7,663 nt of DNA, taken from Planctomycetota bacterium. Its GTDB lineage: Bacteria; Planctomycetota; Phycisphaerae; UBA1845. Shown one piece after another: positions 633-7,614 of this stretch. The stretch is from the NCBI GenBank assembly GCA_022566435.1, contig JADFIX010000010.1, positions 1,681 through 9,343 on the forward strand, in the 5' to 3' direction. Position 1 is the first letter of the stretch. Each line of letters starts with the position of its first letter. The translations under genes and the position numbers were made by a program. Below the pieces are notes generated by a model that was not told the origin of the DNA, made no database searches, and saw only the letters and a list, made by a program, of their open reading frames with translations.

Positions 633-2390
633 CTACACCAAACAGAAGTCTTGAATGCTCTGACTGCACATGCGCGATACGGGTATGGTATTCGCCGGAC
701 GCGCCGGATGACCCGGCGTCCAGCAAAAAAGTCGGTCGCGCAGTTCGTTCGTCGCGACGATTTGATCGGCGACCGCTTCGACGCGCCGTAATGTCTGACC
801 GCCGGCCTCATATCGGCAGACGAAACTGTCGCCCAGCACCTGTGCGCGAATGCAGATCGACGTGTCGCTGAAGATCAGTCTGTCCACACCCTGCGTGGCG
901 AGGTGCCAAATCGATTCCGCGGCACGTCCGCCGCCGCGCGAGATGATTTCCGGATCGGTGTCGGCCGAACCCGACCAGCGCAAGACATCACCGCGACTGT
1001 TACCGGCGAACACGCCCGAAGGCGAAACGCACAACGACGTGATCGAACAATCGCTACCGGTGAAGAGTTGCGACGGCATCTGCGCGCCGTCACCGATCGG
1101 CATGCAGATCACGCGATCATCAATGGCACAGTAGACCTGGCCGCCGGTCGCGCACACTGCGCGAACTGTCTGCGAACTCTTGGTCATCGATTCCAGTAGG
1201 CGTCGCGGCGAATCGGGTTTGTCTACTCGCCATTCATAGAGCCCGAGTTCGGAATGGGAGGCAAAGACCCGATCTTCGCACGCTGCCACGGCGTTGAACC
1301 CGCCGCGAACGCTGGGCGCACCCGGCACCGAAAGCGTCAGGTCCGGGCGCTTCGCGTCGAGCGGTAGTCGATAAACTCCGGTCGCCGCACCCAGCCACAA
1401 GACGGCACCCGGTTCACCATGGCCCGCGGTCTGTACCGAGCGAACCGCACCGACGGTGCCCTCGATCGGCACGCGGCGCGCTACCTTCGAAGGGTCTTTC
1501 GGTTCGAAGAACAGAAGTTCGTGCCCCACGGCCACCACGATCCAGCGCGTTTCCGTTACGGCGGCGTCCGTCGCAAAAAGAGCCTCGTAAAGCTCACCTC
1601 TCTGCTGTTCCGTAAAGGTCTGCAATAGAACGGGCAGATCGACGTCAGGCGATGCGGTGGCCAGTGAACTCAAACGATCGAGCATCTCGGCCAGATGGTC
1701 CAGATGTTCGCCCTGGGCTCGCTCGATCGCCTTTTTGAGACTTAAAGAGGTGTCGTGCTCGGCCCGACGGCGGGCGGTCTCTTGCTGGGTCTTTTGCAGA
1801 CCGCGAAGGGAGGCCGAATCGATTCGGACGACCGGTCGACTCTCCGCGCGGAGCCCGCCGGAAAAACACGGCGCTTTCAGAGCGTCGGCCACCGCGGTCG
1901 CCAATTGGTCGAGGGCATCGGGGCCGACGAGTTCCTTCCCATCGAGTTTCGCCGCGACTTCCATCAGCGCTGCCCGCACGGTCGGTTCCAGGTATCTCGC
2001 GATGGCCTTCGTTTGCACGACACGATGGCTTCCGAGTACGTGCTTTTGGAACGATTGAAGATCACCCGCTTCGGGGACGACGCTTACCTTCACGTCGACC
2101 GCGGCGTTGCCTTGAAAGTGATCTCGCGAGACGAGCCCTTCGGTCTCGATCGAAACATCCACCGGAGACACCCGGACGAACATGATGTCTTCGGCTCCGG
2201 CGCGGGGTATGTTCGCCCCGGGCTGGACCACGATCTGGTCGCCGGCCGTCCGGGTGATCAGCGCCGCCCAAAAACCGGGTAAGTCCAGGGTTCGTGTCAG
2301 CAGACCAAACACCTCGGACGCGGATACGTTGAGCGCGATGTTATCCGCCCCGTCGAAGAATCGTTGTGGATCAAACTTGCCGGCAATCAT
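633..2390 (-). CDS. SPFH/band-7-like domain protein with central coiled coil and C-terminal beta-propeller
   Basis: This protein of 585 residues has no signal peptide or clear membrane helix. Residues about 40-160 read as a divergent SPFH/band-7 domain: a short beta stretch (IVVQPGANIP), DIMFVRVSPVDVSIE, GLVSRDHF, VDVKVSV, then a helix with FQKHVLGSHRVVQTKAIARYL and LEPTVRAALMEV. This is the layout seen in bacterial SPFH proteins. A charged helical stretch at about 190-240 is probably coiled coil. From about 285 to the end, repeated strands of the type VYRLPL, GLYEWRV, VYCAIDDRVI, VFAGNSRGDVLRW and DRLFCWTP indicate a WD40- or PQQ-like propeller. SPFH proteins scaffold membranes and form large rings; the propeller may bind a partner or cargo (inference). 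ATG at 2390 is preferred over the upstream TTG because GAGG lies six bases before it. The gene starts 40 bases after the ATPase stop. The propeller call is firmer than the SPFH call. Confidence 0.75.
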   Translation of the reverse strand: MIAGKFDPQRFFDGADNIALNVSASEVFGLLTRTLDLPGFWAALITRTAGDQIVVQPGANIPRAGAEDIMFVRVSPVDVSIETEGLVSRDHFQGNAAVDVKVSVVPEAGDLQSFQKHVLGSHRVVQTKAIARYLEPTVRAALMEVAAKLDGKELVGPDALDQLATAVADALKAPCFSGGLRAESRPVVRIDSASLRGLQKTQQETARRRAEHDTSLSLKKAIERAQGEHLDHLAEMLDRLSSLATASPDVDLPVLLQTFTEQQRGELYEALFATDAAVTETRWIVVAVGHELLFFEPKDPSKVARRVPIEGTVGAVRSVQTAGHGEPGAVLWLGAATGVYRLPLDAKRPDLTLSVPGAPSVRGGFNAVAACEDRVFASHSELGLYEWRVDKPDSPRRLLESMTKSSQTVRAVCATGGQVYCAIDDRVICMPIGDGAQMPSQLFTGSDCSITSLCVSPSGVFAGNSRGDVLRWSGSADTDPEIISRGGGRAAESIWHLATQGVDRLIFSDTSICIRAQVLGDSFVCRYEAGGQTLRRVEAVADQIVATNELRDRLFCWTPGHPARPANTIPVSRMCSQSIQDFCLV

Positions 2391-2396
2391 GTCGTA

Positions 2397-2400
2397 CCTC
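2397..2400 (-). promoter_or_regulatory. Shine-Dalgarno GAGG for the SPFH-propeller gene
   Basis: On the minus strand GAGG stands six bases before ATG 2390. This selects that ATG over the TTG at 2402, which would put the GAGG inside the coding region. Confidence 0.6.
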
Positions 2401-2430
2401 AAACAGCGTTATTTCAGCCGCCTGCCGATT

Positions 2431-3549
2431 CTAGTCTCGCCCTTGGAAGAACTTCTCGTAACGGACCAAATCAGACTGTTTCACCGACGGCGGCGTACTC
2501 TGAATCACGGCCAGTACATCCTTGTAGGAAATCGCCCTGGCCTCCTTGCCGGCGATGGCCTCCATAAAGGGTAATTGTGCCGACTGTAGGGCAATATTTG
2601 CGATATCCGCCCCGCTGTAGCCGTCTAATTTGTCACAAAGATCGCCGAAATCCACGTCGTCGGCCAAGGGGCGGTCTTCAAAGTAGATTTCCAGCAATCG
2701 CATGCGAGCGACGGCGTCGGGCAGGGGCACGTAGACTTTCGAGTCCAACCGGCCCGGGCGAAGCATAGCTTCATCGAGCATCCAGGGCCGGTTCGTCGCC
2801 CCGATAAACAGAAGCGCCCGGTCGCTGTTACGATCGAATCCTTCGAGCTCCTGCAGAATCTGCGGCACGACACGTTGCATGACCGTCGAGCCGCCGCTTT
2901 TTCGCTTGGGCACCAGGGCCTCGGTTTCGTCGAGGAAGATGACCGACGCATCTTCCGCCTTGGCCGCCTCGAAGAGTTTCTGGACGTTCTGCTCCGCCTC
3001 GCCGACCCATTTGCTCATCATCTGCGCGGGGCTTACCAGGAAGAATGCGGCGTCGATTTCGCGGGCGACCGCCCTGGCGATCATCGTCTTGCCGGTACCG
3101 GGGGGGCCGTAGAGAAGTAGGCCGCCGCCGGTGCTGATGCCGTATTTTTTCGCCAGTTCGGGATGGGCGAAGGGGTAGATCATCTTGAGGCGGATCTCTT
3201 CTTTCACGTCGTCCAGCCCGGCGATGTCGTCGAAGCCGATGGTCGGCTTGTCCTTGACGATCCAGTCGGAGGCACTTGCCCCGGAGTCGTCTTCCTTCTC
3301 GCGCTGCCGTCGGCGGGCGTCTTTGGGCGACTTGTGCAGATGGTCGCAGTCTTTGGCCAGGTCGATCAGCTCGGCCGCGATCTCTTCGTGCTGACGCTGG
3401 ACCTCGGGCGACTTCGTGGCTTCCGCCAATTCGATCAAGCTTTCGGCCGCCTCGATCAGATACGTTTTAGCTGTCAGGTAGTCGCCCTTCTGGTAGGCCG
3501 CGACGCCCTTGCTTTTCAGCCGATCAAATGTGGAAAAAGAAACAGCCAT
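2431..3549 (-). CDS. Vps4-like AAA ATPase with N-terminal MIT domain
   Basis: This 372-residue ATPase most likely remodels or disassembles the ESCRT-III-like proteins encoded upstream. Residues about 5-73 look like a three-helix MIT domain (GVAAYQKGDYLTAKTYLIEA, then EEIAAELIDLAKDCDHL), followed by a charged linker to about 100. The AAA module has FDDIAGLDDVKEEI (106-119), Walker A GPPGTGKT (148-155), pore loop KWVGEAE (180-186, with the Trp of Vps4), Walker B VIFLDE (203-208), sensor 1 GATN (250-253) and arginine-finger region LRPGRLD (263-269). The end, with VIQSTPPSVKQSDLVRYEKF, matches the C-terminal helix typical of Vps4 and its meiotic-clade relatives. It differs from eukaryotic Vps4 (about 435 residues): the beta-domain insert is missing, because LPFMEAIAGK passes almost directly into ISYKDVLAVIQ, and the finger motif is of p97/FtsH type (RPGR). 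ATG 3549 is preferred; the GTG at 3570 lies inside a hairpin. Katanin- or spastin-like ATPases are the alternatives. Confidence 0.92.
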   Translation of the reverse strand: MAVSFSTFDRLKSKGVAAYQKGDYLTAKTYLIEAAESLIELAEATKSPEVQRQHEEIAAELIDLAKDCDHLHKSPKDARRRQREKEDDSGASASDWIVKDKPTIGFDDIAGLDDVKEEIRLKMIYPFAHPELAKKYGISTGGGLLLYGPPGTGKTMIARAVAREIDAAFFLVSPAQMMSKWVGEAEQNVQKLFEAAKAEDASVIFLDETEALVPKRKSGGSTVMQRVVPQILQELEGFDRNSDRALLFIGATNRPWMLDEAMLRPGRLDSKVYVPLPDAVARMRLLEIYFEDRPLADDVDFGDLCDKLDGYSGADIANIALQSAQLPFMEAIAGKEARAISYKDVLAVIQSTPPSVKQSDLVRYEKFFQGRD

Positions 3550-3558
3550 ATTCTGTAG

Positions 3559-3575
3559 GGCGGGTTCCACCCGCC
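3559..3575. repeat. Perfect 7-bp palindrome GGCGGGT-TCC-ACCCGCC in the leader of the ATPase gene
   Basis: The hairpin ends ten bases before ATG 3549 of the Vps4-like gene. On the + strand it reads TGTAGGGCGGGTTCCACCC, which resembles short palindromes I recall as widespread between planctomycete genes. On the mRNA it would form a stem immediately upstream of the start codon. I see no Shine-Dalgarno there, so it could influence translation, but a dispersed element is as likely. Confidence 0.45.
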
Positions 3576-3600
3576 GTTCCTCTATAAGCGATCCACCGAT

Positions 3601-3843
3601 TCAGCATCTTTTCCTGGCTCTAGCATTCGCCTTGCCTTTCCCAACGGTAATGTTGGTCACCAGCATGACGTCGACGATTTCGAACGAGCCGTCCTCTCCG
3701 TAGATGACAGCGCTGCGTCCCGTGGGCGACACGGCCATGAATTCCGGATGTTCGACCGGAATGTTCCGTCCGTCCGCCAGATTGACGACGAATGGTCTGA
3801 ACGGTTCTGCACGGTACACGGATTTGAATTCTGATGATTGCAT
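3601..3843 (-). CDS. Small protein of unknown function (80 residues)
   Basis: The protein is a compact beta-rich sequence: RAEPFRPFVVNLADGRNIPV, then VEHPEFMAVSPTGRSAVIY and GSFEIVDVMLVTNI, with a basic tail (GKGKANARARKRC). I recognise the pattern (F-RPF, LADGR, V-HPEF, IVDV) from small hypothetical proteins that I associate with Planctomycetota, but no function is known to me. There is no signal peptide, membrane helix or catalytic motif. AAAGG nine bases before ATG 3843 is a plausible ribosome-binding site. It lies 55 bases after the phosphatase and 51 before the ATPase. Its role in the locus is unknown and it may be a passenger. Confidence 0.7.
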   Translation of the reverse strand: MQSSEFKSVYRAEPFRPFVVNLADGRNIPVEHPEFMAVSPTGRSAVIYGEDGSFEIVDVMLVTNITVGKGKANARARKRC

Positions 3844-3898
3844 GTTCGTTTGCCTTTAGCCATATTTCGTATCATGGCACCGCCCACCAATGTATCCG

Positions 3899-4441
3899 CT
3901 AACGCCTCCCCGGATAATGCAATCGCTGAAGCGTCGCGGCTTTGGTATCCCCGGCCGGGCCGGCCAGCGTGACAATAAACAAATCGTCGTAGCCGGGGAG
4001 GATTTTGTCTTCGATAGGCACGCCGAGCGACTTCAACAGCTCCGGTATCGTGTTCGAATGGCCGCTTACCAAGAGCGTCTGCCCCCGATGTTTACGCCGG
4101 ATGGTCTCGGCGAGTTTCCCCGGCCTCGGTACGTAAGATTCGACGGACAGCCCCTTTTCCTTGGCGATCGGTTCGACGGTGTGAAGAGTTCGCGGGGCGT
4201 CGGTACTGTACACCGCGTCGAGCGCGATGTCGCGCAGCATCCAGCTCAGAACTTCGACCCGCGTTTTCCCCTCGGGCGACAAATCCGCGTCAGGTGTCTC
4301 GCCGGTTTTCTCCGCATGCCGCACGATATACACGACCGTTGGCTTTGTGCTTCGTTCATCGGGCGTCTGGGCACCAAGCAATGGTACAAGAACACAACTA
4401 CTCGCGAGCAGCACCCAACGTTTAGTCTTGGAAATCGTCAT
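3899..4441 (-). CDS. Secreted histidine phosphatase, SixA/phosphoglycerate-mutase-like
   Basis: This is a 180-residue member of the histidine phosphatase superfamily, branch 1. Residues 1-24 form a Sec signal peptide (basic start KTKRW, hydrophobic core, cleavage probably near LLGA-Q). The catalytic RHAE motif at 41-44 supplies the nucleophile His42. ADLSPEGK at 52-59 is the usual follow-on motif, Arg84 in YSTDAPRT is a likely phosphate ligand, and His128 in SGHSNT is the second catalytic histidine. All key residues are present, so the enzyme should be active, in the periplasm. The substrate cannot be told from the sequence. Because it would act outside the cytoplasm, direct work on the ESCRT-like proteins is unlikely. 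The 144-base gap upstream suggests it may have its own promoter. Confidence 0.88.
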   Translation of the reverse strand: MTISKTKRWVLLASSCVLVPLLGAQTPDERSTKPTVVYIVRHAEKTGETPDADLSPEGKTRVEVLSWMLRDIALDAVYSTDAPRTLHTVEPIAKEKGLSVESYVPRPGKLAETIRRKHRGQTLLVSGHSNTIPELLKSLGVPIEDKILPGYDDLFIVTLAGPAGDTKAATLQRLHYPGRR

Positions 4442-4488
4442 GGTGTTTTCATTGCTCTTCGTCGTGTGTTTCGACGATTACCTTCTTC

Positions 4489-4539
4489 GGTGGGCAGTGC
4501 CAACCCTACCGTATTGGACCGGTCGCTTACGCTCGCGGT
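4489..4539. repeat. Intergenic palindrome plus GCGAGCGTAAGCGA-type element
   Basis: On the + strand, GGTGGGC (4489-4495) pairs with GCCAACC (4499-4505) with one mismatch and a 3-base loop. Next to it, GGTCGCTTACGCTCGCGGTA (4520-4539) contains, on the minus strand, GCGAGCGTAAGCGA. Both resemble short extragenic elements that I recall as recurrent in planctomycete genomes. They occupy the widest gap in the array, between the 202-residue ESCRT-III-like gene and the phosphatase. Confidence 0.4.
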
Positions 4540-4552
4540 ACTGACATCGACC

Positions 4553-4584
4553 CTTCGTCGCTTCGTCGCTCTGTCGCTTCCTCC
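4553..4584. repeat. Tandem 8-base repeat CTTCGTCG
   Basis: CTTCGTCG occurs at 4553-4560 and 4561-4568, followed by the variants CTCTGTCG (4569-4576) and CTTCCTCC (4577-4584). The run ends directly beside the stop codon (4586) of the 202-residue ESCRT-III-like gene. It is a simple short tandem repeat with no evident role. Confidence 0.6.
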
Positions 4585-4585
4585 A

Positions 4586-5194
4586 TCACTTCTGCTTCTC
4601 CCCTTCTCCCTTCAACGCACTCAATTCCGCACGAAGACCGGCGAGTTTGTCCAGCTCGCGATTGTGTTCCGCCTCCGTCTCGGCGTCGATCAGCCGGTCG
4701 ATTTCCTCGTCCGAGACCGCCTCGCTCGCTTTGCCCGATTCCATGTCCGATGCGGCCACGTCCTCTATCGTATCGAGGAACATATCCATTCGCTCTTCCA
4801 TGGTTTGCGACTGCACCATGGCCTTCTCCCAGTCGGCTTGGGTTTGGACCAGATCGGTCTCGCCGAAGAGCTTGCCGATTTCAGAGGCCATCATGCCCAT
4901 GGCCTGTGCGAAGTCCGCCGACGCCTCCGCCTGCCGCTTGATCAGCAGGGCGTTCTTGACCGACAGGAGTTGCCGTTCGAGCATCTTGCGAATGGACGCC
5001 GTCTTCTTGAGCGAGTTGCGGATGAACGTATACTGCTGGTTGTCGCCGATTTTCTTGGCATGCTGGGCGTTCTTGATGAATTCGTCCTGAAACTTGCCCT
5101 GCTCGCGAATAGATTTCTCGATCCGCCGAATACCCTGACGAATCTTGATATCCCGCTCGATGCGACGCTCTTCCGCAGACTTGAAAAGACCCAT
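4586..5194 (-). CDS. ESCRT-III/CHMP-like protein with MIM1-like C-terminus
   Basis: This 202-residue, almost wholly helical protein is the clearest ESCRT-III homologue here. It begins MGLFKS, like the MGLFGK start of several eukaryotic CHMPs. A basic helix (about 10-48) and a second long helix (about 52-90) form the alpha1-alpha2 hairpin; between them AKKIGD (46-51) takes the place of the AKKGQ turn of CHMP proteins. FAQAMGMMASEIGKL (95-109) and MVQSQTMEERMDMFLDTIED (126-145) match the alpha3 and alpha4 patterns. An acidic linker, SDEEIDRLIDAE (161-172) like alpha5, and a final helix follow. The end, LRAELSALK (187-195), fits the LxxRLxxLK core of MIM1 except for Glu at the Arg position. It would bind MIT domains such as that of the ATPase at 2431-3549. 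PspA/Vipp1 is the alternative family, but the short acidic tail and MIM-like end favour CHMP type. Confidence 0.82.
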   Translation of the reverse strand: MGLFKSAEERRIERDIKIRQGIRRIEKSIREQGKFQDEFIKNAQHAKKIGDNQQYTFIRNSLKKTASIRKMLERQLLSVKNALLIKRQAEASADFAQAMGMMASEIGKLFGETDLVQTQADWEKAMVQSQTMEERMDMFLDTIEDVAASDMESGKASEAVSDEEIDRLIDAETEAEHNRELDKLAGLRAELSALKGEGEKQK

Positions 5195-5282
5195 GAGGTT
5201 TCACTTTCGTTGTCGGTACAGTGCGGCCAACCGCGACGGCCGGTCCCCAAGCCGAGCGACGAGGCACGTCAGAATCACCGCG

Positions 5283-5489
5283 TCAATAATACTCCCGCTC
5301 GGGAATCAGAAGCCAAAGGACGAAGTAGACCAGCAGGCCGGGAAACGCGGCGGAGATGATCGACAACAGCACATAGGCTACGCGCACCGCGGTCGTGTCG
5401 ATGCCGAAGTATTCACCAAGCCCGCCGCACACGCCGGCGACCTGCCGGTCGGCGACGCTTCGACGCAACGTGTTTCCGTATGCACTCAT
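5283..5489 (-). CDS. PspC-domain membrane protein
   Basis: This 68-residue protein is essentially one PspC domain. The N-terminal part has the signature LRRSVADRQVAGVCGGLGEY (8-27), continuing FGIDTTAVRVAYVLL. One hydrophobic membrane span follows at about 37-62 (LLSIISAAFPGLLVYFVLWLL), ending in IPEREYY. In the phage-shock response PspC is an inner-membrane protein that communicates envelope stress to PspA, a member of the ESCRT-III superfamily. Here it lies between two ESCRT-III-like genes (39 bases after one, 88 before the other), suggesting a membrane anchor or recruiter for one of them. That role is inference. Free-standing PspC domains also occur in unrelated contexts. Confidence 0.9.
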   Translation of the reverse strand: MSAYGNTLRRSVADRQVAGVCGGLGEYFGIDTTAVRVAYVLLSIISAAFPGLLVYFVLWLLIPEREYY

Positions 5490-5528
5490 GATGGTCTCAC
5501 CACTCCGCCTTGTTCGCAGTCGCCGTCC

Positions 5529-6134
5529 TTACGCCTCCGGCGCCGCGTGGCGTTCGCGCACGCTTCGGTCGGCTTCCTCAAACGCTTCGCTCTGATCGGT
5601 AATGGCCCCGTTGTCCATTTTTTCCCATACATTCAGGACGGTCTGACCGGCGTCGCTCAGGCCGGCCGCCCCTTCGTCGATTTCCGAGCCGATTTTCAGA
5701 ATCTCATCGAGTCGTTCTTGATAGACCTCACTTCGGACGGCGTCCGTCTCGATCAGTTTCCCGAGGCGGAGCATGTCCGTTTCACTGACCAGCCCGATCT
5801 TGCCGCGGCTCCCCGCCCGATCGGGGTTTTCCCGCAGCATGCGCAGGCGAGAGACGGTCATCATCTCCTTGCTGCGTATGTTAAGCTGCCGGGCGATCAT
5901 GAGCTGTTCGGTGGTGCGCAGCTCGAACTCCTGCGCGAGGGCCCGTCTGATCTCGGGCGTCTTTTCTTTCGTACCGCGCTCGAAGAGCGTCTCCTTGTCC
6001 TTGCCCAGCTTACTGATCTTGTTCAGCATTTGCGTGCGATCTTTTTCCAGCAGCAATTCCTGGCGGCGCAGCTCCGACCGGGTCATCTGAGACAGCGGCT
6101 TCTTTCTCTTGGTTAGCCATTCGAGAAAACCCAT
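5529..6134 (-). CDS. ESCRT-III-like helical protein (second paralogue)
   Basis: This 201-residue helical protein has no signal peptide. It starts MGFLEWLTKRKK, a short amphipathic and basic N-terminus suited to membrane binding. A long helical hairpin follows: residues about 16-52 (ELRRQELLLEKDRTQMLNKI) and about 58-102, joined at RGTKEKTPEIRRALAQE, which resembles the CHMP turn plus LA-containing second helix. DMLRLGKLIETDAVRSEVYQ and RLDEILKIGSEIDE (about 120-154) resemble alpha3-alpha4. The tail is short and acidic, with no MIM1 pattern, so it may depend on a partner for ATPase contact. ATG 6134 lies four bases after the upstream stop, with GGAGG twelve bases before it; the open frame extends further upstream, but that part overlaps the previous gene. 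ESCRT-III membership is less certain than for the 202-residue protein; PspA-like or generic coiled coil are alternatives. Confidence 0.7.
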   Translation of the reverse strand: MGFLEWLTKRKKPLSQMTRSELRRQELLLEKDRTQMLNKISKLGKDKETLFERGTKEKTPEIRRALAQEFELRTTEQLMIARQLNIRSKEMMTVSRLRMLRENPDRAGSRGKIGLVSETDMLRLGKLIETDAVRSEVYQERLDEILKIGSEIDEGAAGLSDAGQTVLNVWEKMDNGAITDQSEAFEEADRSVRERHAAPEA

Positions 6135-6138
6135 CTTA

Positions 6139-7614
6139 TTAAATCGCCTCCGGATCGGCGGGACGCGACTTTTCGCCGCTTTCATTCAGCTTGCCATCTG
6201 CGACCGGTGGCGGCGTTTCGCCGATTCGCTCCGTCGCCGCGGGAGTGCTCGATCCTTCCGGCGTCGGTGCCGCGCGCTCGACCGTCGATGGTTGCTCCTC
6301 CGCGCCCTCGAATTCCTGCATGATCGCCAGCTCTTCCTCACTGGTCAGCGATTGCTCCATGCCGGTCTCCAGACTGTCCACCATGTCGGCGTCGGCGTTG
6401 AGCGTTTCGAGCATCTCCTCCGCTTCCACGGCGTGCTCGGTGAGCTCGGTCGTATCCGGAAGCTGGGCCATTTCGCCCTGCTGGATCAAGGTCAAGTTGT
6501 GAATGTCCGTACTAATGATGTTAATCTGCTTGTTGAGCATGGCCGCCGAGGTGTTCTGCCGGCCTATATCCTTGCGAAGTTGCAGGAGCTGCGAAGCGAG
6601 GCGACGGAGGGGTATTTGAGACTTGGCTGCCTTGGCAGCCTTGCCCTCTTCAACAAGCTGCGCGTCTTTTTGCTCGAGTTTGCCGATGTCTTCGTAGATG
6701 CGGTCGCGACGTTGCGCCAGGGCAGCGCGACGTTCGGCCAGCACGTTGATCTTGTCGCTTTCGTCGCCGTCGCCGGCGAAGAGGCTCTTGATCTTGTCGA
6801 TGACATTCATCGATTGTTTCTCCTGATGGCGCGTCGCGGCGCCACGGTACATCAGCACGTCGTTCGCCTTCTTCGTGATGCGCAACTCCGGATCCGCCTT
6901 GGCGATTTGGCGGAAACCCTCTTTGACGACTTCGACGGGCAGATGGGTCTTTTCGACGACCGACGATACCGACAATCCGCCGGTCAGCAAGTCGGCACTG
7001 TGCTGTTCGATGATGTCCTGAACGCGCTGAACCTTCTGGCTGACGCCCTCCGGATCGAACATCGCCAGGACACGCGGATCGACGCCTTCACCGGCGGCCG
7101 TCGCCCGCCAGCCGCCGTGCCCGTCGGGTTCGACGAGTACGATTTGCGCGCTGGTCGAGCTTAGTGCGGCGTTTCTCGCCTCGTCTGTAAAGCCCGTGGG
7201 ACTGCAAATACCGACGACGTGCCGGACGCCTTTGTCCGACGTCAATTCCCGAACATGTTCCGTCAATTCACCAAGGTCGATGGGTGGGCCGTCGGATTCC
7301 GCGGATTTGGCGTAATGACTAAGCGGCGACAGCACCGAGGCGATCGCGATGCCAGTCTTGCGCTTCAGGAAGAGCCACCGTCGCTCGTATCCATGGATGG
7401 CGATCCGGCGATTGGTGGGCATCGATTTCAGCAGCTCGCGGTCGTAGTTGTGGTGGGTGGCCATCAGTGATCGCATACGGGGGTCGTCGTCATGTTCGGT
7501 CCGCTCCCACTGCGATCCCGTCAGGTGTTTTCCTTTGGCCGCTTCGAGGTTGGCCCCGACGCCGGAGAGGAATTCCGTTTCGAAATGCAGTGCCTTGGAT
7601 GCGTTGGCTGTCAT
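6139..7614 (-). CDS. Winged-helix / ESCRT-III-like fusion protein (CHMP7-like layout)
   Basis: This 491-residue protein has three parts. Residues 1-185 are an unrecognised alpha/beta region with strands such as VRHVVGICSPTG (130-141) and AQIVLVEPDGHGGW (156-169). Residues about 195-258 look like a winged helix (GLSVSSVVEKTHLPVEVVKE, then LRITKKANDVLMYRG). Residues 269-440 form an ESCRT-III-like core: amphipathic MNVIDKIKSLF, charged helix, KAAKAAKSQIPLRRLASQLL, QLRKDIGR, then helices ending in SLTSEEELAIMQEFE, which is alpha5-like. A proline-rich, acidic tail (about 445-491) follows. A winged helix joined to an ESCRT-III core recalls eukaryotic CHMP7, though homology of the N-terminal part is unproven. 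TAA lies directly before ATG 7614, fixing the frame limit; no Shine-Dalgarno is visible there. An internal Shine-Dalgarno and ATG at 6810 may also give a separate 223-residue core. A sequencing frameshift fusing two genes is unlikely, because the joint reads cleanly. Confidence 0.75.
   Translation of the reverse strand: MTANASKALHFETEFLSGVGANLEAAKGKHLTGSQWERTEHDDDPRMRSLMATHHNYDRELLKSMPTNRRIAIHGYERRWLFLKRKTGIAIASVLSPLSHYAKSAESDGPPIDLGELTEHVRELTSDKGVRHVVGICSPTGFTDEARNAALSSTSAQIVLVEPDGHGGWRATAAGEGVDPRVLAMFDPEGVSQKVQRVQDIIEQHSADLLTGGLSVSSVVEKTHLPVEVVKEGFRQIAKADPELRITKKANDVLMYRGAATRHQEKQSMNVIDKIKSLFAGDGDESDKINVLAERRAALAQRRDRIYEDIGKLEQKDAQLVEEGKAAKAAKSQIPLRRLASQLLQLRKDIGRQNTSAAMLNKQINIISTDIHNLTLIQQGEMAQLPDTTELTEHAVEAEEMLETLNADADMVDSLETGMEQSLTSEEELAIMQEFEGAEEQPSTVERAAPTPEGSSTPAATERIGETPPPVADGKLNESGEKSRPADPEAI
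6147..6151 (-). promoter_or_regulatory. Shine-Dalgarno GGAGG for the 201-residue ESCRT-III-like gene
   Basis: GGAGG on the minus strand stands twelve bases before ATG 6134, inside the last codons of the preceding gene. This favours ATG 6134 over the in-frame ATG at 6185 and implies translational coupling across the 4-base gap. Confidence 0.55.
6820..6824 (-). promoter_or_regulatory. Internal Shine-Dalgarno AGGAG for an in-frame start at 6810
   Basis: On the minus strand AGGAG is followed after nine bases by ATG 6810-6808, in frame with the 491-residue gene (codon 269). The start would give MNVIDKIKSLF and a 223-residue ESCRT-III-like protein. The site falls at the boundary between the winged-helix-like segment and the ESCRT-III core, and the resulting N-terminus resembles those of the other two ESCRT-III-like proteins. 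It is a better ribosome-binding site than anything visible before ATG 7614. Confidence 0.6.

Follow-up and report, generated by a model that had tools for sequence, protein, structure and literature searches.

A locus in a Planctomycetota bacterium (GTDB lineage Bacteria; Planctomycetota; Phycisphaerae; UBA1845) is likely, by our prediction, to encode an ATP-driven membrane-remodelling machine of the type formed by ESCRT-III and Vps4 (ESCRT, endosomal sorting complex required for transport). The window, that is, the whole stretch of DNA analysed, comprises 7,663 nucleotides (nt) of GenBank assembly GCA_022566435.1 (contig JADFIX010000010.1, interval 1681-9343; G000:C773 in our numbering). The machine would consist of three helical proteins (H1, H2 and H3), an AAA ATPase (VPS4a) and an SPFH protein with a WD40-type propeller. 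Eight open reading frames make up the locus, all on the minus strand, running from position 7614 of the window down to 633 with intergenic gaps of 4, 39, 88, 144, 55, 30 and 28 nt. An earlier note, made from the sequence alone, had described an ESCRT-like gene set here on one strand with small gaps, and every gene that it named is present in that arrangement (gaps of 4 to 144 nt). Its list omitted a phosphatase gene and a gene for an 80-amino-acid (aa) protein between H3 and the ATPase, and two conserved neighbours, a kinase and a membrane protein, sit upstream, outside the window.

The strongest evidence comes from H3 (202 aa; 4586..5194, minus strand), whose family is, on the basis of profile searches, related to ESCRT-III/Snf7. 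A profile of 39 H3 proteins, in which the window protein shares 35 to 93% identity with the rest, was searched against 177,635 PDB sequences, and all eight hits at E≤10 were to ESCRT-III proteins (CHMP3, Snf7 and CHMP2A), the best being CHMP3 at E 0.001. Searched singly, 34 of the 39 members gave a match to Pfam Snf7 with E≤10 (best 3.7e-6), whereas the runner-up family was matched by 6. As a control that preserves composition, 20 of the members were searched in reversed form; they gave three PDB hits, none to ESCRT-III, and Snf7 was absent from the best 25 of their 40 Pfam families, so that at most one of the 20 could have matched it. Across 294 planctomycete genomes Pfam Snf7 gave 26 matches at E≤0.001, of which 25 fall at independently found H3 genes; four lie above the curated cut-off, below which the archaeal control Sulfolobus stays. 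A Snf7 domain is therefore recognisable in H3 at the level of the family only. The profile search did not place H3 in an unrelated coiled-coil family, and the proposal that the system lies closer to archaeal and eukaryotic ESCRT than to the bacterial phage-shock protein (Psp) system holds for H3, given its Snf7 match and the absence of PspA from the best 25 of 61 families for the 39 members.

The AlphaFold2 model of H3 (mean predicted local distance difference test score, pLDDT, of 71.7) shows a long hairpin and further helices (residues 7-49, 52-110, 115-152 and 162-201), and the first five PDB ranks in Foldseek are CHMP2A, CHMP3 and CdvB, all ESCRT-III, at E 0.19-0.36. The model is consistent with ESCRT-III but does not decide the matter. 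A basic N-terminal half and an acidic C-terminal half are a hallmark of ESCRT-III proteins, and this division is seen in all three helical proteins of the window (+11/-16 in H3, +10/-10 in H2 and +5/-24 in H1C, the C-terminal half of H1).

The second line of evidence is the ATPase. VPS4a (379 aa; 2431..3570, minus strand, first ATG at 3549) has a single AAA cassette (PF00004, 135.9 bits) and a Vps4_C helix (PF09336, 27.5 bits against a cut-off of 21.3). Among 64 VPS4a sequences Walker A and the aromatic pore loop are each present in 63, and the Walker B pattern in 50, including the window protein. Many distant relatives carry a second ATPase of about 405 aa, VPS4b, whose N-domain profile finds the MIT domain of VPS4B/SKD1 in the first four of its 50 PDB hits (E 0.001 to 0.003), followed by designed TPR proteins at E 0.004. 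Over its whole length VPS4b is co-linear with human VPS4B across MIT and AAA at 221.6 bits; the best printed single CDC48 domain reaches 188.7 bits, and two AFG2-homologue chains reach 231 in all. VPS4a and VPS4b have homologous N-domains (hhalign probability 95.6%, E 1.3e-8), and because that of VPS4b matches the MIT domain of human VPS4, VPS4a is taken to have an MIT-type domain as well (approximate limits 3343..3534, minus strand); a profile of the VPS4a N-domain itself gave no clear match in the PDB. The claimed architecture of MIT, AAA and Vps4_C is thus supported, its first part by way of VPS4b. An RF-E-K arginine-finger region is a feature of the meiotic clade of AAA ATPases and RPGR is the p97-type counterpart; VPS4b shows SRF[ED]K in all 26 sequences. 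The best PDB match of VPS4a is CDC48, which also gives the best E-value over 17 members. A VPS4b query of ten genomes, the window's included, found only matches of 31-38% identity, which we read as VPS4a-type or general AAA proteins, so one ATPase seems to serve in the window's lineage.

A candidate link between the two proteins lies at the end of H3. Its C-terminal helix is conserved, with LRAELxxLK in 50 of 85 non-redundant tails, and in the window the motif LRAELSALK (4610..4636, minus strand) is a predicted MIT ligand resembling MIM1. A broader MIM1-like pattern occurs in 68 of the 85 tails; over 300 shuffles the mean is 1.33 and no shuffle exceeds 6. Because the tails had been viewed before the patterns were composed, and because the sequences are related to one another, these tallies do not represent independent events. 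The tails of H2 and H1C gave no match to two MIM1-like patterns. We infer that H3 is the main substrate predicted for the ATPase.

The two remaining helical proteins are related to one another through the C-terminal half of H1. H1 (491 aa; 6139..7614, minus strand) is predicted to comprise an alpha/beta N-domain (residues 1-187; 7054..7614), a winged-helix domain (residues 191-259; 6838..7044, minus strand) and a CHMP/PspA-type helical hairpin with an N-terminal amphipathic helix. Its AlphaFold2 model (mean pLDDT 84.3) joins the winged helix to a membrane-type hairpin, and the modelled H1C (6346..6828, minus strand; helices 263-280, 285-330, 336-382 and 389-423) has a predicted topology like that of ESCRT-III and PspA. 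The N-domain is confidently modelled and could act as a sensor or cargo part. H2 (201 aa, helical; 5529..6134, minus strand) probably starts at the ATG at 6134, since most homologues among the matches listed have 201 aa. It is homologous to H1C (hhalign probability 98%, E 3e-13), which makes it a predicted second hairpin-type subunit; H2 members have no clear Pfam family.

Homologues of these proteins are numerous and their gene order is conserved, which excludes chance. In the protein database, counted at E≤0.001 and with the 120 best matches of each query listed, we found 2,994 homologues of H3, 1,228 of H2 and at least 422 of H1 (for which only the 7,995 candidates sharing most words were scored). 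The H3 profile matches 54 of the 294 planctomycete genomes. In 40 regions around H2 or H3 matches, mapped with profiles, the recurrent order is H1N (the N-terminal half of H1), H1C, one or two H2, VPS4b, H3, VPS4a and SPFH, with SPFH at the opposite end in some regions; in many, H2 is unrecognised by profile yet a helical gene occupies its position. The window's H1 and its 120 best homologues (466-507 aa) are fusions of two halves that many distant relatives encode in separate, neighbouring genes. By our reading of the map a VPS4-type ATPase is present in 29 of 32 H3-bearing regions; the remaining three come from contigs roughly 7 kb long, one of them breaking off within an ATPase.

A scan of 84,980 named species returned 157 places encoding a relative. 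Among the best 80 of these 157 loci, H2 is found at 74, H1N at 72, H1C at 69, VPS4a at 47, SPFH at 41, PspC at 35, the 80-aa protein at 2, VPS4b at 1 and the phosphatase at none (PspC, the phosphatase and the 80-aa protein being sought by single-sequence search with the window's sequence). Where 3.5 kb of upstream sequence is available, H1N is present at 65 of 68 loci and H2 at 62 of 68; SPFH occurs at 36 of 52 loci with 6 kb downstream. VPS4a occurs at 43 of 61 loci with 3 kb downstream, and the lack of conservation of the ATPase beside the helical genes, which the earlier note had named as an outcome that would speak against its proposal, did not occur. Archaeal contamination was rejected as an origin: for the best 80 named loci the record titles give a planctomycete lineage or plainly 'bacterium', with one exception, titled Alphaproteobacteria (L139). 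This locus carries H1, H2, H3, VPS4a and the kinase, its core genes being those of the Phycisphaerae, and its genome bin is possibly misnamed. As a separate observation, four genomes of one family (f34; L075-L078) have H2-family proteins with no recognised H1, H3 or close ATPase in the fetched regions.

Further genes of the locus suggest a membrane setting. The SPFH protein (589 aa; 633..2402, minus strand), a predicted membrane platform, matches Band_7 (PF01145, 28.2 bits against a cut-off of 23.6), and a profile search of the PDB identifies its C-terminal half as a WD40-type propeller (best E 3e-12). A PspC-domain membrane protein is encoded at 5283..5489 (minus strand; PF04024, 80.2 bits), and both assignments agree with those first proposed. 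Immediately upstream of the window, the same strand also encodes a Ser/Thr kinase with zinc-ribbon-like cysteine pairs (L061, 9595-10659) and a small membrane protein (L061, 10676-11122). Relatives of the kinase are found at 73 of 112 H3 loci, and at 48 of the 63 among them with 6 kb on both sides; relatives of the membrane protein are found at 57 of the 112, a set in which at least one contig is counted twice (L082 and L180 are apparently identical). Both genes lie upstream of H1 in close relatives, and a kinase lies beyond SPFH in several distant ones. The SPFH-WD40 protein, the kinase and the membrane protein are frequent partners, and PspC is an optional one. The two other genes are probably outside the system: the histidine phosphatase (3899..4441, minus strand; PF00300) and the 80-aa protein (3601..3843, minus strand) were rejected as parts of it, being found at 0 and 2 of the 80 named loci, respectively. 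Short repeats such as 'cgttgttcg' occupy positions 330-425, between a plus-strand gene at the window start and SPFH.

Several results weigh against a machine of the ESCRT-III/Vps4 type. First, taken singly, H1, H2 and H3 score above cut-off with nothing in Pfam or NCBIfam. By itself, window H3 scores no more than 7.7 bits (E 3.5) with Snf7, for which reason the Snf7 case rests on the family; 29 of the 54 H3-bearing genomes have no Snf7 match (25 of 54 do), and a Pfam Snf7 search of the window's own genome, which is 64% complete, gave none. With a helical profile, an E-value of 0.001 in the PDB does not settle the matter, as the H2 profile hits a designed helical bundle at 0.0002; because of that match the weight of the H3 result lies on all eight hits sharing one family, not on the E-value. 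Second, fold searches with the H3 and H1 models gave no match at E≤0.001, and in VIA-align BAR domains score as high as ESCRT-III or higher for H3. Judged by hydrophobic moment, the N-terminal residues of H2 (0.16) and H3 (0.05) lack amphipathic character, the median being 0.35. Third, sequence searches of Pfam and the PDB tie neither H2 nor H1C to ESCRT-III. Comparison by hhalign also found nothing between H3 and H2 or between H3 and H1C, so H2 and H1C were rejected as proven ESCRT-III proteins. The earlier claim of three CHMP-like hairpins therefore stands in part: H3 is Snf7-related as a family, a hairpin is predicted in H3 and H1, and H2 would follow by homology to H1C; ESCRT-III membership of H2 and H1C was not supported.

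The ATPase and the locus layout add to these objections. The p97-type motif RPGR[FL]D is present in 63 of 64 VPS4a sequences, and the best NCBIfam row of the window protein is CdvC (NF041006) at 237.6 bits, below the cut-off of 650. Because of this motif and the score far under the cut-off, we call the window ATPase Vps4-like, as its domain composition suggests, and not a proven Vps4 orthologue. Ten ATPase N-domains searched against Pfam gave weak TPR rows and no MIT row, and the strict eukaryotic MIM1 is found in only 3 of 85 H3 tails. The downstream ATPase is missing at 18 of the 61 loci; of 12 genomes tested that have no downstream VPS4a, 11 have a VPS4a-type match (E≤1e-60) somewhere in the genome. 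Lastly, two loci from chromosome records depart from the full set: at one (L107) PspC, H3, VPS4a and SPFH are present with H1 and H2 unrecognised, and at the other (L169) only H3 is found within 10 kb, with a VPS4a-type match elsewhere in the genome.

On balance we favour a bacterial machine of the ESCRT-III/Vps4 type. Its most probable role is to repair the cytoplasmic membrane or to carry out scission there, a preference suggested to us by the SPFH and PspC genes of the locus and by published links of SPFH proteins with PspA and with ESCRT. We postulate that the SPFH protein would oligomerise at a membrane site, where H1 could nucleate a filament through its winged helix and amphipathic helix. 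H2 and H3 would polymerise on this nucleus and curve the membrane. The MIT domain of the ATPase may then bind the MIM1-like tail of H3 and extract subunits, and the resulting polymer turnover would constrict a neck or seal a lesion. PspC, the upstream kinase and the membrane protein may sense stress and set assembly. A stronger form of this proposal, which we put forward tentatively as a possibility short of an even chance, is a true bacterial ESCRT: a composite polymer built from three or four hairpin subunits, started by a winged-helix/hairpin nucleator on an SPFH-WD40 platform, turned over by one or two MIT-type AAA motors acting through MIM1-like tails and gated by the kinase, that would carry out scission of ESCRT topology, in endomembranes or cell division, in bacteria without FtsZ. 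If this were true, ESCRT would no longer be confined to archaea and eukaryotes.

The best of the competing explanations, which we nonetheless consider unlikely, is a variant envelope-stress system of the Psp type, in which PspA-like coiled coils act with PspC and SPFH and the AAA protein is a chaperone or regulator instead of a Vps4-type motor. PspC at 35 of the 80 named loci would fit such a system, as would the VIPP1-like hairpin that fold comparison suggests for H1C; against the PspA profile, H1C gives an hhalign probability of 28 to 30%, which is weak, and H3 one of 7 to 25%. A link between SPFH and phage-shock proteins also has precedent in Bacillus subtilis, where, in the part of the source consulted, a phage-shock protein needs an SPFH-domain protein for its membrane link (PMC8581546). 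The H3 family, however, matches Snf7, and PspA itself (PF04012) sits at other loci, in 32 of 119 genomes, with no match in the window's 64% complete genome. For window H1, H2 and H3 there is no PF04012 row at E≤1, and PspA is not among the best Pfam families listed for H3 or H2 members. A single-sequence search of the 40 fetched regions found PspC only at the window's own locus. To our knowledge, an MIT-type ATPase is not part of Psp systems.

Quite improbable, in our judgement, is a Cdv-like division machine in place of FtsZ, with an ESCRT-III-like filament constricting the division neck and the ATPase driving scission. Archaeal Cdv division is described, in the part of the source consulted, as employing ESCRT-III and Vps4 homologues (PMC10936438), and FtsZ scores above cut-off in none of the 294 planctomycete genomes (11 weaker matches), compared with 13 of 14 control genomes. 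Yet H3 is found in only 54 of the 294, so most planctomycetes lacking FtsZ appear to divide without it; this distribution does not fit, and FtsZ replacement was set aside as a lead reading. The SPFH, PspC and kinase partners would also fit repair better. The window's genome bin itself holds an FtsZ-like fragment at 216.7 bits (G000:C475:4101-4706, L251), which speaks against replacement there and which may be real or from a contaminant contig. We regard as very improbable that unrelated coiled-coil proteins beside a generic CDC48-like unfoldase resemble ESCRT through composition and convergence: helical folds do match one another indiscriminately (for H3, VIA ranks BAR domains first), H2 has a designed bundle as its best PDB row and no clear Pfam family, and VPS4a has a p97-type motif with CDC48 as its best PDB row, but the reversed-sequence control is clean, the co-linear match of VPS4b to human VPS4B (221.6 bits) exceeds that to every printed single CDC48 domain (188.7 or less), and the gene order is conserved.

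ATP-driven machines of the ESCRT-III/Vps4 type are reported as confined to archaea and eukaryotes, and a conserved bacterial system of many genes, with a Snf7-type subunit and an MIT-type AAA motor, would overturn that view. Such a system would give ESCRT evolution a bacterial branch and make membrane remodelling testable in some bacteria of a phylum in which FtsZ stays below cut-off. Planctomycetota are known for their internal membranes; the connection that the earlier note suggested between these and the gene set is speculative. In the titles and abstract beginnings of the papers listed by our literature searches (preprints and supplements lying outside this coverage) we found no description of this system, nor in the portions consulted of PMC7618577, PMC11746142, PMC7203096 and PMC6952346. 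A close bacterial precedent is Ravi et al. 2024, who describe, in the part seen, bacterial operons of AAA+, PspA and Snf7 and transferred VPS4-like ATPases (PMC11237479). As here, bacterial AAA+ ATPases associate with PspA/Snf7 proteins; in contrast to our locus, a TPR/6TM gene has taken the place of snf7 alongside their transferred VPS4-like ATPases, and a distinct AAA+ protein that partners PspA has two AAA domains. The string 'planctomycet' is missing from the main text of that paper (its supplements being outside this check).

Among known systems, archaeal ESCRT/Cdv shares with this locus a Snf7-type subunit, an MIT-AAA ATPase, a winged helix beside ESCRT-III and an SPFH gene; according to the part of the source consulted, some of the archaeal systems include SPFH and 'Meth_adaptin' (PMC10936438). 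The present locus differs in being bacterial, in its winged helix, which is N-terminal and fused to the hairpin, in the WD40 propeller of its SPFH protein, in the frequent Ser/Thr kinase and PspC and in a CdvC score under the cut-off. No ESCRT-I, adaptin or ubiquitin parts were recognised in the window, though no search was aimed at them; the earlier description of the set as complete is not supported. To eukaryotic ESCRT-III/VPS4 it is linked by an H3 profile nearest CHMP3, a VPS4b N-domain nearest the MIT domain of VPS4B and a MIM1-like tail, and it departs from it in the rarity of strict MIM1 (3 of 85), the RPGR motif of the window ATPase and the lack of a recognised ESCRT-I/II complex. Bacterial Psp systems resemble it in PspC and SPFH neighbours and helical hairpin subunits, whereas its Snf7-type instead of PspA-type subunit, MIT-type ATPase and several helical paralogues set it apart. 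We do not class the other parts as proven ESCRT-III or Vps4; H3 is a Snf7 relative, and the locus as a whole appears to work like ESCRT.

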